A stretch of 32,116 bases of DNA from Candidatus Muproteobacteria bacterium (GTDB taxonomy: Bacteria > Pseudomonadota > Gammaproteobacteria > Acidiferrobacterales > Sulfurifustaceae), in contig DAIDLH010000094.1 of NCBI GenBank assembly GCA_027449605.1, forward strand, positions 1 to 32,116, given 5' to 3'. This document shows positions 15,736 to 22,969 of this stretch, piece by piece (positions within the stretch are counted from its first letter, which is position 1; every line of letters begins with the position of its first letter). A model generated the notes under the pieces. That model was given only the letters and a program-made list of their open reading frames with translations. It did no database searches and was not told where the DNA came from. A program made the translations under genes and the position numbers.

Positions 15736-17586
<1,851 letters not shown>

Positions 17587-17775: not shown

Positions 17776-17852
17776 GGGCCTGTAGCTCAGTTGGTTAGAG
17801 CGGAGGACTCATAATCCTTTGGTCCCAGGTTCGAGTCCTGGCGGGCCCACCA
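17776..17852 (+). tRNA. tRNA with CAT anticodon (elongator Met or Ile2)
   Basis: A 77-nt gene including encoded CCA. The acceptor arms GGGCCTG and CGGGCCC pair over seven positions with one G-T. TAGCTCAGTTGGTTAGAGC is the D-arm, GGACTCATAATCC the anticodon arm with CAT at 17810-17812, and GGTTCGAGTCC the T-arm. CAT without initiator features (the 1-72 position is paired) means elongator Met, or Ile2 if modified to lysidine by TilS. The sequence alone does not decide safely. Confidence 0.95.
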
Positions 17853-17871
17853 TTTATTTCTTCGTCCAGGC

Positions 17872-17876
17872 TCATG
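17872..17876. repeat. 5-bp direct repeat TCATG, left flank (target-site duplication)
   Basis: TCATG immediately precedes the left terminal inverted repeat and recurs immediately after the right one at 22478-22482, as expected for a target-site duplication. Confidence 0.6.
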
Positions 17877-17903
17877 TGTGCATGGGACCATAGTTTGGCC
17901 GCC
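17877..17903 (+). repeat. Left terminal inverted repeat
   Basis: 27 bp; pairs with 22451-22477 with one mismatch at the tenth base (G here, A in the complement of the other). It carries the core CATAGTTTGGCC once. Confidence 0.75.
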
Positions 17904-17961
17904 TATCGACCTCAGCGATCTTGCGCCGTTCGTCTCTCGACCATGTCATGGCGGGTGTCTT

Positions 17962-18447
17962 CTACTTCGCGACCGGCTCGATCGTCACCTTCAGCGAACC
18001 GGGCACGTTCAGCGCTTCGATGCCGGAATCGATCCGGCCCAACTGGATGAGTCCTTTCGAATAACCGAAATCTCTATAGAAAATCGCGAGATTTCCCCAG
18101 GGAGCGTAGTAGGTGATGTCACCCACGGAAGGATCGCTGCCCGCGGGCGCACCCGCGGTGGATAGTTTTCTTGGCAGATAGCTGATCTTTTCGGTCGCTT
18201 CGTAATCTTCCAGCGTCAGCGTCATCGGCAACAGGGAAACAAAATCCCTGACTGTGGCGTTGTCGCTCAGGGTTGCGGTCATCGCTTTTCCATTGATCGT
18301 CAGACGGATCTTCATAACGTTCGCCCCCTGACTAGACAGTTCTATCGGTGGTTTTGTGCGGGCACTGGCCGCACCGTTGTCGGCGCCGTAAGCGGCGGGA
18401 TTGACGGCGAGCGCCCATACAAGGATGAAGAGCAGTGTTTTTCCCAT
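17962..18447 (-). CDS. Exported cyclophilin-like fold protein
   Basis: A 161-aa protein with an N-terminal signal peptide (MGKTLLFILVWALAVNPAAYGA), so predicted periplasmic. After a short linker the mature domain MKIRLTINGKAMTATLSDNATVRDFVSLLP, then KISYLPRKL, GDITYYAPWGNLAIFYRDFGYSKGLIQLGRI, corresponds to the small cyclophilin-like family (Cyclophil_like / DUF369-type beta-barrel). Prolyl isomerase activity is unproven in this family and is not claimed. Its ATG overlaps the stop of the alcohol dehydrogenase gene by one base (TAATG), so translation is coupled. It is the last gene of the cassette operon, 58 bp from the left terminal repeat. An internal ATG before KIRL might give a cytosolic form. 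Confidence 0.75.
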   Translation of the reverse strand: MGKTLLFILVWALAVNPAAYGADNGAASARTKPPIELSSQGANVMKIRLTINGKAMTATLSDNATVRDFVSLLPMTLTLEDYEATEKISYLPRKLSTAGAPAGSDPSVGDITYYAPWGNLAIFYRDFGYSKGLIQLGRIDSGIEALNVPGSLKVTIEPVAK

Positions 18448-19463
18448 TACGGGCGCAGCAGCGCCTTGATGGCGCGGCGCTCATCCATCGCGCGGTAGCC
18501 TTCCGCCACTTGGTCCAGGGGCAAGGTCAGGTCGAAGACCTTCCCAGGGTTGATCTTCCCGTTCAGAACCAGGTCGATCAGCTTGGGCAGGTAGCGGCGC
18601 ACCGGGGCCGGGCCGCCGTGCAGGTGGACGTGAGAGAAGAAGAGCTCCTCGCCGTTGAGCTCGACCCCATGCGGCACGCCGACGTAGCCGACATAGCCAC
18701 CCTTACGGGTGGAGCGGATCGCCTGCATCATCGAATCCTGCGTGCCCACGCACTCCAGCACCGAGTCGGCACCAAGGCCGTGGGTCAGGTCCATGATACG
18801 GGCGACCCCCTCGTCACCGCGCTCTGTCACGATGTCGGTCGCGCCGAACTCGCGGGCGAGCTTTTGCCGCTGCTCGTGCCGGCTCATGGCGATGATCCGC
18901 TCGGCCCCCATCTGCCTGGCCGAGAGCACGCCGAGCAGGCCGACCGCGCCGTCGCCGACGACCACGACGGTGGATCCCGGCTTCACGTTCGCCGCATCGG
19001 CGGCGAACCAGCCGGTGCCCAGGACATCCGAGGTGGTCAGCAGGCTCGGGAGCAGGTCGTCCTTTGGTACGCCCGGTGTCGGCACCAGCGTCCCGTCCGC
19101 GAGCGGCACGCGCAGCAGCGGCGCTTGTGCGTGGCTCATGAACTCGCGGTGCGTACACGATGACTGGTAGCCGATCTGGCAGGTGGGACAGGTGTTGTCG
19201 GAGGTGGCGAACGAGCCGATGACGAACTGACCGGGCTTGATCGAGCGCACCGCGCTGCCCACCTCCTCGACGACCCCGCAGTATTCGTGTCCCATCGGCG
19301 TCGGCCCGTCGATCGGCTGCAGCCCGCGATAGGGCCACAGGTCCGAGCCGCACACGCAGGTGACGGCCATGCGGATGATCGCATCCGTCGGCTCGACAAT
19401 CTTCGGGTCCTCGCGCTCCTCGAAGCGGATGTCGCGCGGGCCGTACAGAACAGTTCCTTTCAT
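18447..19463 (-). CDS. Zinc-dependent medium-chain alcohol dehydrogenase family protein
   Basis: A 338-aa MDR oxidoreductase acting on an unknown alcohol or aldehyde with NAD(P). The catalytic-zinc region has VCGSD (Cys38) and GHEYCG (His59-Glu60). The structural-zinc lobe, normally four Cys in the pattern C-x2-C-x2-C-x7-C, reads D89, C92, C95, C103, so the first ligand is Asp. The Rossmann motif is VVGDGAVGLLGV, with SRHEQRQKLAREFGA after the second strand; a basic/neutral residue there would fit NADP(H). A strong AAGGAG ribosome-binding site precedes ATG 19463. It lies 31 bp after the flavodoxin-like gene and overlaps the cyclophilin-like gene by one base. It is third in the LysR-divergent operon. 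Confidence 0.92.
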   Translation of the reverse strand: MKGTVLYGPRDIRFEEREDPKIVEPTDAIIRMAVTCVCGSDLWPYRGLQPIDGPTPMGHEYCGVVEEVGSAVRSIKPGQFVIGSFATSDNTCPTCQIGYQSSCTHREFMSHAQAPLLRVPLADGTLVPTPGVPKDDLLPSLLTTSDVLGTGWFAADAANVKPGSTVVVVGDGAVGLLGVLSARQMGAERIIAMSRHEQRQKLAREFGATDIVTERGDEGVARIMDLTHGLGADSVLECVGTQDSMMQAIRSTRKGGYVGYVGVPHGVELNGEELFFSHVHLHGGPAPVRRYLPKLIDLVLNGKINPGKVFDLTLPLDQVAEGYRAMDERRAIKALLRP

Positions 19464-19494
19464 GGTGGTCTCCTTGTCTTCCTTGTGACGTTTA

Positions 19495-20130
19495 TCAACC
19501 CGTCCTGACCCGTTGGGTCATTTCAGTCTCCTGCCCGCCGGCAAGTGCTGAACTCGAATTCACGCCCTGCCTGAATTGGGAGGCGACCTCGGCGACACGC
19601 TGACCGAGGTGAGCGGCCGTTTTCAGGTCGCTCTCAATGGGCGCGACGTCGGGACCTTCGTCCACGTTGGATTGCGCCATCGCCCCGAGCCAGCTGCCGA
19701 GCCGGTTGAGATCGTCAACGGAACCTTTGCTGCCGCTGTTTCCGGGATGCAGGTCCAGTCCCACCCAGATCATCGCGTGCTGGGCAGCGAACAGGGCCAT
19801 CGAAACGAGCGTGTTCAGTTTGTCGCCGCTTTGAGCGCCGGAGTTGGTGAAGCCGGCGGCGATCTTGTTGCGCCACTTCAGCCCGCGCCACACCGGCTGA
19901 GTTGAATCTTCAAAGAACTGCTTGAGTCTGGCGCTCAGCGAACCGTTGTAGGTCGGCGAGCCGAAGACGATGGCATCGCTGGACTCGAGCGTTTCCCAGG
20001 GGATCGGCCCGCTCGCCACTGCAATCAGCTTCACTTCAGCATCGGGAACGCGACGCACTCCTTCTGCCACGGCCTGGGCCTGTTTGGCGGTGTGGCCGTA
20101 GCCACTGTCGTAGACAATCGAAATTAGCAT
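19495..20130 (-). CDS. Flavodoxin/WrbA-like NAD(P)H oxidoreductase
   Basis: A 211-aa flavoprotein, probably an FMN-dependent quinone or nitro-group reductase. The N-terminal phosphate loop ISIVYDSGYGHTAKQAQAVAEG binds FMN, DAIVFGSPTYNGSLSARLKQFFED is the second FMN loop, and FTNSGAQSGDK the third, as in WrbA-type proteins. The C-terminal tail (after about residue 190) is low in conservation. ATG 20130 is chosen since GAGGA lies 8 nt upstream; an in-frame ATG at 20169 overlaps the preceding hydrolase gene. Second gene of the operon, 31 bp after the hydrolase. The exact electron acceptor is unknown. Confidence 0.9.
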   Translation of the reverse strand: MLISIVYDSGYGHTAKQAQAVAEGVRRVPDAEVKLIAVASGPIPWETLESSDAIVFGSPTYNGSLSARLKQFFEDSTQPVWRGLKWRNKIAAGFTNSGAQSGDKLNTLVSMALFAAQHAMIWVGLDLHPGNSGSKGSVDDLNRLGSWLGAMAQSNVDEGPDVAPIESDLKTAAHLGQRVAEVASQFRQGVNSSSALAGGQETEMTQRVRTG

Positions 20131-20161
20131 TTTATATTCCTCGTTGTACCTACCAAACGAC

Positions 20162-21268
20162 TCAGGCAAGATGTTTCTTGAAGTAGGACGTGAGTTTGTC
20201 CCACGGGATCAGGTTCACCCGGTCGTACAGATCGGTGTGGTTGGCGCCCGGGATGATCATGAGTTCCTTCGGCTCCGCAGCAGCCGCGTAGGCGGTTTCG
20301 CTGAAGTATCGCGAGTGTGCCTTTTCGCCATGGATCAACAGCACAGGGCGCGGTGAGATTTCCGCGATGTAGGTCAGGATCGGCATGTTCATGAACGACA
20401 GCGGGGTTGTGAGCGTCCACGAGCCGTTCGAGTTGACCGCCCGCGGATGGAAGCCGCGCGGCGTCCTGTAGTAGTCGTGATAGTCCACCAGAAATTGCGC
20501 TTCGCCGCCTTTTAGTTCATTCATGACTGGGCCATACGCCGGGGCTCCATTTTCCGCGTCCTTCCAACGCTGTTGGCTCAGTTGCTCCAGCATTTGTGTG
20601 CGCTGTTTCAGGGTCACGCTGTCGTTGTAACCCTTGGACATGACGCGGGTCATGTCGTACATGGTGCTGGCCACAACAGCCTTGACGCGCTTGTCCACGG
20701 CGACGGCATTCAACGCCATACCGCCCCAACCACAAATGCCGATGATGCCGATACGCTCACGGTCAACGTTTGGTTGCAGGCCGAGAAAATCCACCGCTGC
20801 GCTGAAATCCTCGGTGTTGATGTCCGGTGAAGCGACATTGCGTGGCTCGCCACCGCTTTCCCCGGTATAGGATGGGTCGAAAGCGAGCGTGACGAATCCG
20901 CGTTCCGCCATCGTTTGTGCATAAAGGCCCGACGACTGCTCCTTCACCGCGCCAAAAGGGCCACCAACGGCAATCGCCGCCAGTTTGCCGCTGGTATTTT
21001 TCGGCTGGTACAAGTCAGCCGCCAAGGTGATGCCGTAGCGGTTCTTGAAGCTGACCTTTTTGTGGCCAACCTTGTTGCTTGTGGCGAAGGTCTTATCCCA
21101 TTTGTCGCCGAGTTGGATTTGCGACTGCGCGAAGGCTTGGCCCGCGGGAACCATCCCAACGCTCAAGGCGGCGATGCTGACGCCAGTCATTTTCAGCAAG
21201 TCACGGCGTCCCAGATCAGGAGCATCCTGTTCAGCGATTGCGTTGTCGATTTCGTTTTGCTTGTTCAT
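20162..21268 (-). CDS. Tat-exported alpha/beta hydrolase (dienelactone hydrolase-like)
   Basis: A 368-aa alpha/beta-hydrolase with a twin-arginine signal: GRRDLLKMTG (Arg21-Arg22), a hydrophobic stretch and GQAFAQ cleavage region, so it is predicted to be exported folded. The catalytic set appears as a nucleophile elbow GICGWGG (Cys about residue 179, in place of Ser, as in dienelactone hydrolases), an acid after VLLIHGE, and His in PGANHTDLYD. The substrate is unknown. ATG 21268 is preceded by GGAGAA; an ATG seven codons earlier is less likely. It is the first gene of the leftward operon and is divergent from the LysR gene across a 133-bp gap with an inverted repeat. The cassette context suggests detoxification of an electrophile or ester. 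Confidence 0.88.
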   Translation of the reverse strand: MNKQNEIDNAIAEQDAPDLGRRDLLKMTGVSIAALSVGMVPAGQAFAQSQIQLGDKWDKTFATSNKVGHKKVSFKNRYGITLAADLYQPKNTSGKLAAIAVGGPFGAVKEQSSGLYAQTMAERGFVTLAFDPSYTGESGGEPRNVASPDINTEDFSAAVDFLGLQPNVDRERIGIIGICGWGGMALNAVAVDKRVKAVVASTMYDMTRVMSKGYNDSVTLKQRTQMLEQLSQQRWKDAENGAPAYGPVMNELKGGEAQFLVDYHDYYRTPRGFHPRAVNSNGSWTLTTPLSFMNMPILTYIAEISPRPVLLIHGEKAHSRYFSETAYAAAAEPKELMIIPGANHTDLYDRVNLIPWDKLTSYFKKHLA

Positions 21269-21281
21269 GGTGATTTCTCCG

Positions 21282-21300
21282 AGTGACACGTGGCGTCACT
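21282..21300. promoter_or_regulatory. Inverted repeat upstream of the hydrolase gene, possible LysR operator
   Basis: AGTGAC and GTCACT are perfect 6-bp arms around a 7-bp spacer, 14 bp upstream of the hydrolase ATG. Its place in the divergent LysR/operon gap makes it a candidate LysR-type binding site. It is close to the start codon, so repression is as possible as activation. Confidence 0.4.
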
Positions 21301-21338
21301 CTAGGCTGCCCACTGGCAAGCGAGTAGCCCATAAACGC

Positions 21339-21368
21339 TTGCATCAGTTACAAATAAAGATTGATAAT
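21339..21368 (+). promoter_or_regulatory. Candidate LysR gene promoter
   Basis: TTGCAT (21339-21344), an 18-bp spacer and GATAAT (21363-21368), followed about 33 bp later by ATG 21402. Part of a roughly palindromic AT-rich stretch (ACAAATAAAG...ATAATTGT) lies over the spacer and -10, so autoregulation is possible. Confidence 0.45.
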
Positions 21369-21401
21369 TGTGGGCCTATTCCACTGCACGCAAGATCCAT
21401 C

Positions 21402-22391
21402 ATGCCGTTCAACGAACTGCGCGCCATCGCCACCTTCGCCAAGGCCATCGAGCTGGGCAGCATCCGCAAGGCGGCGCTCGCCCAAGGCGTCACGCCGCAG
21501 GCGGCCAGTCACACCATTGCGCATCTGGAGCGGCACCTCGGCGTGCGCCTCTTGCATCGCACCACCCGCAGCCTGGCCACGACCGAAGAAGGGCGGCACC
21601 TGCTGGAGCAGGCGTTGCCTGCGCTGGCCGCCCTGGAAGGGGCGCTCACTCAAGTGAAGGAGGCCCGCCACGCGATCGCCGGGCCGATCCGCATCGCCGG
21701 GCCCAAGTCCACGTTCGCTCCGGTATTGGCGCCGTTGCTGGAGGAGTTCTGCCAGATGCATCCCGGCATCCAGCCCGAGGTCGAACTCAACGATGCAATC
21801 GGCGATTGGGTGCACGAGCGCGTGGACGTCGGCTTCCGCATCGGTGTCCATCACCCGGGTTCGGGGTTGATCGCGCGGCGGTTGTTCCCCTTGCAGCTGA
21901 TCGTCTGCGCCGCGCCGGCCTATCTGGACCGTCACGGTGTTCCCGCCACGCCGGCCGATCTGTCCGCCCACCGCTGCAGCGTGTTCCGCAACCCGGTGAC
22001 TGGACAGATCGAACCGTGGTTTCTCAGTCACGACGGTGCCATGCAGCAGCACCGCCTGCCGCCCGCGTTTTCGACCAACGACCTCGAATTGGAATTGCAG
22101 GCCGTGCTCGCCGGGCAGGTGATCGGGCAACTCACCAATCTCTCGGCCGCGCCTCACATTCGGACGGGTCGTCTCGTGCCGCTGTTGCTGCCCTACATCA
22201 GCGCGCATTACGGCGTCTACATCTACTACGGTAGTCGCAGCGCGCAGCCCAAGCGGGTGCGCGCCTTCATCGACCTGGCTGTGGCGCGCTTGCAGGACGC
22301 CCCGGCCTTCGTGCTCGATCGCCAGGAGCTGGAAGCCGCAGCACAGTCCTGGCGGCGGGCTCGGCGGCGAGTGCGCCCGCACAAATCGTGA
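21402..22391 (+). CDS. LysR-family transcriptional regulator
   Basis: A 329-aa regulator. The N-terminal winged helix-turn-helix reads FNELRAIATFAKAIELGSIRKAALAQGVTPQAASHTIAHLERHLGVRLLHRTTRSLATTEEG (given here as the motif run; helix-turn-helix at about residues 18-40). The effector-binding part follows from about residue 90 (GPIRIAGPKSTFAPVLAPLL), with ERVDVGFRIG and LIARRLFPLQLIVCAAPAYLDRHG typical of the group that controls divergent oxidoreductase genes. The inducer is unknown. Divergent from the hydrolase-flavodoxin-dehydrogenase-cyclophilin operon, which it most likely controls. The start at 21402 lacks a strong Shine-Dalgarno. Ends 59 bp before the right terminal repeat. Confidence 0.93.
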   Translation: MPFNELRAIATFAKAIELGSIRKAALAQGVTPQAASHTIAHLERHLGVRLLHRTTRSLATTEEGRHLLEQALPALAALEGALTQVKEARHAIAGPIRIAGPKSTFAPVLAPLLEEFCQMHPGIQPEVELNDAIGDWVHERVDVGFRIGVHHPGSGLIARRLFPLQLIVCAAPAYLDRHGVPATPADLSAHRCSVFRNPVTGQIEPWFLSHDGAMQQHRLPPAFSTNDLELELQAVLAGQVIGQLTNLSAAPHIRTGRLVPLLLPYISAHYGVYIYYGSRSAQPKRVRAFIDLAVARLQDAPAFVLDRQELEAAAQSWRRARRRVRPHKS

Positions 22392-22429
22392 ATAGGGTTA
22401 ATGGTTGCGGGCACCCTCCTCGCCAGGGT

Positions 22430-22465
22430 GGCCAAACTATGCTATCCGTTGGCGGCCAAACTATG
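22430..22465 (+). repeat. Two GGCCAAACTATG repeats at the right end, 24-bp period
   Basis: GGCCAAACTATG occurs at 22430-22441 and again at 22454-22465, the second copy inside the terminal repeat. The left end has only one copy. Such subterminal repeats are typical transposase-binding sites. Confidence 0.6.
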
Positions 22466-22477
22466 GTTCCATGCACA
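22451..22477 (-). repeat. Right terminal inverted repeat
   Basis: 27 bp ending CCATGCACA; complement of the left terminal repeat with one mismatch. Confidence 0.75.
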
Positions 22478-22482
22478 TCATG
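22478..22482. repeat. 5-bp direct repeat TCATG, right flank (target-site duplication)
   Basis: Directly adjoins the right terminal repeat and matches TCATG at 17872-17876. Confidence 0.6.
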
Positions 22483-22500: not shown

Positions 22501-22969
22501 ATGCCCCGTGCTCTGATCCTTTATGCCACCACCGTAAGGCCACACCGCGAAGATCGTGCAGCGCCTCGCGCAGCGGCTTCAGGCGCTCGGACATATCGTC
22601 GAAACACACCGCGCCGATGCGGTTCCGTCCGGCCTGGATCCGTCGGCTTATGACGGCGTCATTCTCGGAGCTTCCATTCACTACGGCCATCACCCGGGTT
22701 ATTTTCGTATGCTGGTTCGGCGTCACCACAGGGCACTGACGACGCGACCCAGTGCCTTCTTCTCAGTGAGCCTGAGCGCTGGCGGGCCGGGCACGAAGCC
22801 CGAGGCGGCACAGCGCTATCTGGAAAATTTCCTGAACCAGGTCGATTGGCATCCGCCACAGACCGCGACCTTCGCCGGCGCGCTGCAGTAAGCAAGTACA
22901 GAACATTCAAGCTGGGACGCCGTGGAACGCTTTGCGGATGTTTTTGCCCGGCGTCTCGAGCAGGCGTAA
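22501..22969 (+). pseudogene. Broken HemG-like flavodoxin (protoporphyrinogen oxidase-like)
   Basis: Begins MPRALILYATT after an AGGAAGG ribosome-binding site, then loses frame: the expected YGHTAKIVQRLAQRL continues in the +1 frame, with four bases (GTAA) where one codon is expected, near 22534. The second frame carries DGVILGASIHYGHHPGYFRMLV, FFSVSLSAGGPGTKPEA and DWHPPQTATFAGALQ, matching HemG (E. coli IGASIRYGHYHSAFQ, IAGALRY). It then meets TAA at about 22889. After that stop the same frame reads SSWDAVERFADVFARRLEQA and ends at 22969, like the HemG C terminus, so about 30-35 residues appear deleted. It lies 23 bp after the cassette's right end. Confidence 0.8.

Follow-up and report, generated by a model that had tools for sequence, protein, structure and literature searches.

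The Candidatus Muproteobacteria contig DAIDLH010000094.1 (assembly GCA_027449605.1) contains, within the 32,116-nt stretch analysed here as a whole (the window), a 4,601-bp cassette of five cargo genes between terminal inverted repeats (17877-22477). This cassette is very probably a cargo-only, i.e. non-autonomous, Tn7-like transposon residing at an attachment site 24 nt behind an rpoD-linked tRNA gene with the anticodon CAU (tRNA-CAU). Judged by sequence comparison, its ends assign it to a Tn7-like family with a TnsA-TnsB fusion (TnsAB), TnsC and TniQ, and not to a simple insertion sequence (IS). The insertion point is the tRNA attachment site used by related elements; this had gone unrecognised in an earlier interpretation made from the letters alone (the sequence-only reading), which had described a passenger cassette moved by a transposase elsewhere. 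The unit and its site are defined by the following features (G014 is a genome of the same genus as the window genome, G000):

15736-17586, + strand: rpoD, upstream neighbour of the attachment-site tRNA gene (NCBIfam RpoD equivalog)
17776-17852, + strand: tRNA gene with anticodon CAU, the proposed attachment site (ARAGORN: Met; identical in G014)
17853-17876: spacer of 24 nt from the tRNA 3' end to the cassette, its last 5 nt being the duplication
17872-17876: left copy of the target-site duplication, TCATG (one corresponding stretch in G014, not letter-identical)
17877-17903, + strand: tRNA-proximal terminal inverted repeat
22430-22441, - strand: inner TnsB-type site, a further copy of the end core, one period of 24 bp inwards from the terminal site at the right end
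22451-22477, - strand: tRNA-distal terminal inverted repeat
22478-22482: right copy of the target-site duplication, TCATG

The window tRNA-CAU also resembles tRNA-Ile2. The two inverted arms are complementary at 26/27 positions (96%), whereas 30 mononucleotide shuffles of the 5.2-kb region gave at best 21/27 for an inverted match of this length, and TCATG lies just outside both arms as a 5-bp target-site duplication; in both respects the sequence-only reading was right. When the window genome, a 132-contig draft (92% complete), was searched for the 27-bp end with up to three mismatches, as had been proposed, exactly two places were found, both of them cassette ends. The distal end has two sites (the second at +24), the proximal end a single recognisable TnsB-type site.

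The empty site and the insertion point

For an empty-site survey we used RpoD as anchor in 20 genomes of the window's family; an RpoD orthologue was present in 17/20 loci (L071-L087, own included) and a tRNA-CAU gene was found in 14/20. In G014, whose RpoD is 98% identical, the tRNA-CAU gene is followed directly by the hemG-like gene, with no cassette in between, and a single stretch corresponds to TCATG at the place where in the window two copies enclose the cassette. The empty site that the sequence-only reading had told us to look for in a relative was thus found, the counterpart of TCATG being not letter-identical, and the description of the cassette as a discrete transposed unit is backed by its ends, its duplication and this empty site. 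In the 19 other loci (L072-L090), over stretches reaching at most about 1.5 kb beyond RpoD, blastn (E 1e-5) detected no cassette DNA and tblastn (E 1e-6) none of the five cargo proteins. The insertion left the tRNA gene and rpoD intact.

The position beside a tRNA gene would also suit a genomic island of the integrase type. Such islands duplicate the 3' end of the tRNA and carry an integrase; here, however, a repeat of 5 bp begins 19 nt beyond the tRNA, the ends form inverted repeats and there is no integrase among the five genes. We therefore regard this origin as extremely improbable.

On its other side the cassette ends 23 bp ahead of the start codon of the hemG-like gene (22501-22891, menaquinone-dependent protoporphyrinogen IX dehydrogenase family). 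Compared with the G014 copy, this gene is out of frame close to its beginning. Of the 14 family rpoD loci in which the tRNA-CAU gene was found, seven (L073, L074, L076, L077, L078, L081, L083) have it interrupted within its anticodon loop. An Rfam scan of four of these seven (L073, L074, L077, L083) identified the insert as a group I intron in each; the same holds for L128 of G461, a genome of the Gilvimarinus family. The tRNA-CAU genes of the window and of G014 contain no such insert.

Cargo genes and the absence of transposition machinery

The identities of the five genes given in the sequence-only reading, including the divergent LysR regulator, were confirmed by Pfam, with the Tat-like signal recognised by eye:

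17962-18447, - strand: cyclophilin-like protein with a hydrophobic N-terminus, by eye (PF18050, 4.1e-39)
18447-19463, - strand: zinc-dependent alcohol dehydrogenase (PF00107/PF08240)
19495-20130, - strand: flavodoxin-fold FMN/quinone reductase-like protein (PF03358, PF12724; PRK03767/WrbA models below cut-off)
20162-21268, - strand: alpha/beta-hydrolase with a Tat-like N-terminus (Pfam S15/PETase/Abhydrolase)
21402-22391, + strand: LysR-type regulator, divergent from the hydrolase (PF03466, PF00126)

Close to the N-terminus of the hydrolase the twin-arginine-like motif RRDLLK can be seen by eye. All five frames are open and, as had been stated, tightly packed; the outermost genes stop about 85 bp from the cassette ends, not about 60 bp as given before. 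From the family names one may guess at a function in electrophile or redox detoxification. None of the five is a cas gene (Pfam/NCBIfam), CRISPR arrays having had no separate search. With the whole cassette as query, 57 plasmid records matched, none over more than 80% of its length, and the 20 matches listed each cover about one fifth; the two end regions, used as plasmid queries on their own, produced just short, chance-like matches. A Microvirga plasmid region encodes a relative of the hydrolase (78% identical) with weaker relatives of the cyclophilin-like protein (48%), the LysR regulator (35%) and the alcohol dehydrogenase (27%) nearby, and a Rhizobium plasmid region encodes a relative of the hydrolase only.

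The claim that no transposase lies inside the cassette stands: 12 TnsAB, TnsC and TniQ queries found no tns-like stretch in it at E 0.1, with the element of Gilvimarinus xylanilyticus (G057) recovered as positive control. The cassette is therefore not an autonomous Tn7-like transposon and is only a unit with the ends and the site of one. The transposase that the sequence-only reading had placed elsewhere did not turn up in convincing form in the window genome, where TniQ has no match and TnsAB one weak match (7.6e-4), among genes that by eye resemble a Mu-type phage. The cassette may have moved in trans; that the tns genes were lost afterwards agrees with the data about equally well.

Elements with related ends

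A looser 24-letter pattern, TGTGNNNGGNACCATAGTTTGGCC, matched five loci in genome_contigs, i.e. three in Gilvimarinus, one in Rhodanobacter sp. PCA2 and one in Tahibacter; viral_contigs gave 0 matches. Following the core in the pattern-matching genomes yielded paired ends in two Gilvimarinus genomes. One of them, G057, has a 57,948-bp element with both ends that starts 22 nt after tRNA-CAU and encodes a TnsA-TnsB fusion, TnsC and TniQ (Pfam domains of the fusion: TnsA-like N, rve and Mu-transpos C, two of the three below the Pfam cut-off). In Rhodanobacter (G060), TnsAB and the start of TnsC lie about 4 kb from a distal end on one contig, and a second contig carries TniQ and a proximal end adjoining tRNA-CAU; the two contigs would join into one element. 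The last 50 bp of the window cassette are 82% identical to this distal end on the TnsAB-encoding contig (E 1e-6).

Two wider searches added further elements. Across 369 genomes of the window's class, a TnsAB search with two query sequences gave two genomes at or below 1e-30, G172 and G325, the former with a 16,857-bp element that has both ends and TnsAB-TnsC-TniQ and sits behind an rpoD-linked tRNA-CAU. Among 144 genomes of the Gilvimarinus family the pattern (up to two mismatches) occurred in 11, with end and tRNA-CAU on the same contig in 9 of these; in G461 only the 3' part of tRNA-CAU was read (by eye), beside a group I intron match. The cleanest case is G443, in which rpoD and tRNA-CAU are followed after 23 nt by a 22,020-bp element with both ends, TnsAB/TnsC/TniQ and the duplication ATACC. 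Thus G443, G172 and G057 are tns-bearing elements with both ends read, and the Rhodanobacter element, split over two contigs, is a fourth; since their proximal ends are not fixed, G059, G472 (contig C39), G535 and G539 count as leads and not as proven elements. The tRNA-CAU gene has rpoD upstream also in G058 (G. agarilyticus), G059, G060, G172 and G443. In the PDB the TnsAB profile matched chain 9bw1_M (1.8e-76), whose name is simply Integrase, and, more weakly, the PseTnsAB fusion (2.7e-14); we take 9bw1 to be a type I-B2 system.

The expectation that the cassette ends would recur on transposase-bearing elements was thus borne out as far as related ends are concerned, but their carriers are Tn7-like and not full IS elements. 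This bears on a further explanation, by which the cassette is a passenger of an IS of the IS21 or IS481 type with TGT...ACA ends, i.e. a mobile insertion cassette. TGT/ACA ends are indeed common to IS481 and Tn7-like elements, as stated in PMC11406308, and an IS481-type transposase is found inside the G058 element. By eye, however, this IS481-type gene has separate inner ends of its own, and it has no match in the window genome (in a search without positive control), so that IS481 was rejected as owner of the ends; IS21, suggested by the repeated terminal sites, was likewise rejected, the window genome having just one match to its ATPase IstB, below cut-off. Moreover, both the distance to tRNA-CAU and the association with TnsAB misfit an IS. 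At the five genome_contigs matches no IS with the cassette ends was recognised, some neighbouring frames being unscanned. We regard a passenger of an IS as very unlikely.

Several further observations were made in these genomes. The Tahibacter match (L008/L058) was rejected as a chance match, since the piece examined contained neither a tRNA nor a convincing second end; elsewhere in this genome a distant TnsAB-like protein is encoded together with an AAA protein and TniQ. Two contigs of G472 (L130, L129) each carry an end, the outer 24 bp being the same in both. One of these ends has a second site at +24 and, at a distance of about 10 kb, a distant TnsAB-TnsC-TniQ set; the other has neither a second site nor a Tns match and is close to rpoD and tRNA-CAU. 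At the C57 locus of this genome a distant TnsAB lies about 10 kb from an end of this type, with no second end or tRNA within 59.7 kb. In G325 (L106/L107), a contig that carries tRNA-Phe encodes a more distant TnsAB with TniQ and, as read by eye, a type I restriction system; the candidate end sequences differ, and this is possibly the same branch on another tRNA. In G539 (L133 700-17519) RtcR, RtcB and RtcA (Pfam) and six tRNA genes lie between the end and tRNA-CAU, the proximal end being not found. The surroundings of the Gilvimarinus insertion sites (L057 1-260, 13385-13701; L062 10355-11060) show strings of degenerate tRNA-CAU copies by eye, several of them followed by a similar terminator-like hairpin (also by eye).

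Geometry and architecture of the ends

Both ends were read in five elements, and for these we compared the gap from the CCA of the tRNA to the element, the length of the flanking direct repeat and the start of this repeat past the CCA:

Window: gap 24 nt, repeat 5 bp, repeat start 19 nt
G057: gap 22 nt, repeat 4 bp, repeat start 18 nt
G058: gap 26 nt, repeat 8 bp, repeat start 18 nt
G172: gap 23 nt, repeat 4 bp, repeat start 19 nt
G443: gap 23 nt, repeat 5 bp, repeat start 18 nt

In G482 and G461 the proximal end, truncated where the contig stops, follows the tRNA after 23 nt, and the Rhodanobacter gap is 28 nt from a tRNA gene without an encoded CCA, equivalent to 25 nt counted from a CCA. 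A second 14-letter core at +24 (13 or 14/14) is common to the distal ends of the window, G057, G058, G059, G060 and G443, and the proximal ends of G057, G058, G060, G172 and G443 contain an inverted copy of the core from base 30 (11 or 14/14). Of their first 24 bases, the G057, G060 and G443 ends share 17-21 with those of the window. The cassette thus shows TGT-starting repeats with an inner site, a 5-bp duplication and a fixed distance to a tRNA, as Tn7-like elements do; TnsB and another Tns protein, by which they are also recognised, are absent from it. A hairpin at the window's own site was not supported when G014 and the 24-nt spacer were tested; in the flanks of G057, G058 and G172 two halves of a terminator can be seen by eye.

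A number of observations weigh against the assignment to this family and site. The 27-bp end (up to three mismatches) was found in just one of the 57 genomes searched in the order, which is the window genome, and in 0/56 others, so that no autonomous element with exactly the window ends is in hand. The proximal end of the window has no inverted copy at base 30 (best 6/14), the second distal site of G172 is at +23 (12/14) and not at +24, the G472 C39 end has no second site, and the ends of G172 match the first 24 bases of the window at only 14-16 positions. The repeat lengths of 5, 4, 8, 4 and 5 bp compare with 5 bp for Tn7. The CCA from which G058 was measured belongs to a degenerate tRNA copy, the intact tRNA-CAU lying upstream behind rpoD; in G535 and G539 tRNA-CAU is about 17 kb from the end found, and in G546 and G556, the remaining two of the 11 Gilvimarinus-family matches, there was no tRNA-CAU in the pieces fetched. 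Finally, since the window genome is an incomplete draft, a helper could be missing from the data.

On the Tn7-like reading, which we prefer, insertion would have proceeded in three steps. A TniQ/TnsD-type protein would have recognised the 3' part of the tRNA gene, TnsC would have bridged to the transposase, and a TnsA-TnsB fusion would have cut at the TGTG...CACA ends, inserted the unit and left the 5-bp duplication, the identity of this machinery being inferred. By analogy with Tn7 and with the I-D CRISPR-associated transposon, the TniQ of the Tn7-like family with these ends would probably recognise the tRNA-CAU gene by its 3' part and steer TnsAB through TnsC to insert just behind it.

Origin of the tns-less state

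The window cassette has tns-less counterparts. G058 contains a 13,141-bp element with both ends and no tns gene behind a degenerate tRNA-CAU copy, its cargo being a type I restriction system, an AAA-like protein (below the Pfam cut-off) and the nested IS481-type gene; its genome has no TnsAB match and no TniQ match. In G556 (L135 18860-19092) we found a miniature of about 230 bp with one distal-type and one proximal-type end and, by eye, CTCA on both sides. Given the G058 element and this miniature, tns-less forms recur. Two leads also have an end near the tRNA, G059 with BlaI/BlaR-like regulators and an RND efflux set (Pfam) and G472 C39 with a DUF6694 protein; neither had a Tns match in the piece tested, and G059 has TniQ and a weak TnsB-like match elsewhere.

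The cassette may alternatively have arrived as a complete Tn7-like element that lost tnsAB, tnsC and tniQ by internal deletion, which would make it a stranded remnant and not a passenger. We consider this a serious possibility, though we would not call it probable. It is consistent with the proximal end, which lacks the inverted site present in five other proximal ends at tRNA-CAU, with a genome that has no TniQ and no convincing TnsAB, and with the single copy of the unit. The terminal repeats, however, still match at 26/27 positions and the duplication is perfect, five open cargo frames fill the unit to about 85 bp of its ends with no tns fragment found, and tns-less forms recur (G058 with different cargo, G556 as a miniature). 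The perfect duplication, the near-perfect ends and the open, tightly packed cargo thus lean towards an element that was already tns-less when a helper inserted it, whereas the reduced proximal end and the missing helper lean towards loss in place, and the choice between the two is nearly even.

Relation to known systems and implications

In the literature a branch of Tn7-like elements with fused TnsAB and a tRNA-reading TnsD is described as the source of the I-B2 and I-D CRISPR-associated transposons (CASTs) (PMC11406308), and in CAST I-D TnsD directs insertion 30-33 nt behind tRNA-Leu (PMC10293859). The window cassette resembles this branch in its TGT/ACA ends with repeated sites, its duplication of about 5 bp and its short fixed distance to a tRNA, and the tns-bearing relatives of its ends carry TnsAB-TnsC-TniQ; it differs in having no tns gene or CRISPR system and in its site, the rpoD-linked tRNA-CAU. 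Tn7 itself, according to PMC11406308, makes a 5-bp duplication, inserts at attTn7 at a fixed short distance behind a conserved, undamaged gene (glmS) and has asymmetric ends with several TnsB sites, all of which recall the cassette; its target is another one, however, TnsAB is fused in the relatives of the cassette, and the cassette has no tns genes. With mobile insertion cassettes and the Tn3-derived inverted-repeat miniature elements (TIMEs) it shares the ends of a known transposon around passenger genes without a transposase, but those belong to IS or Tn3 families, whereas the cassette ends are Tn7-like and site-directed. Bacterial miniature inverted-repeat transposable elements (MITEs), 50-500 bp long according to a review (PMC10969869), are likewise non-autonomous, and the G556 unit resembles a MITE of the window-end family; the window cassette, unlike a MITE, has five genes.

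Tn7-like elements behind tRNA genes are thus already known, and the cargo-only units and the rpoD/tRNA-CAU site are apparently new, within the accessible text of the open-licence PMC literature (including PMC10293859, PMC8649781, PMC11406308, PMC10969869, PMC3401170 and PMC6360697), where our searches met no report of tns-less Tn7-like elements or of this site. A large survey of Tn7-like cargo mentions sites behind tRNAs and required TnsB to call an element (PMC8649781); because of this requirement it could not list tns-less units.

With slightly more doubt than conviction, we propose that cargo-only Tn7-like elements form a recurrent satellite class, i.e. cassettes and miniatures whose only remaining transposon parts are the TnsB-type ends and which rely on a passing TnsAB-TnsC-TniQ helper, the rpoD-side tRNA-CAU site being common to full and stripped forms in several genera. 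Our findings suggest a way to detect tns-less units without a transposase gene, by searching for TGT ends 22-26 nt behind rpoD-linked tRNA-CAU genes, and the locus directs attention to TniQ proteins by which a CAU tRNA gene is probably read. The mobilisation of site-directed cargo in trans becomes directly testable and, if the satellite class is real, surveys that start from TnsB would be blind to such elements.

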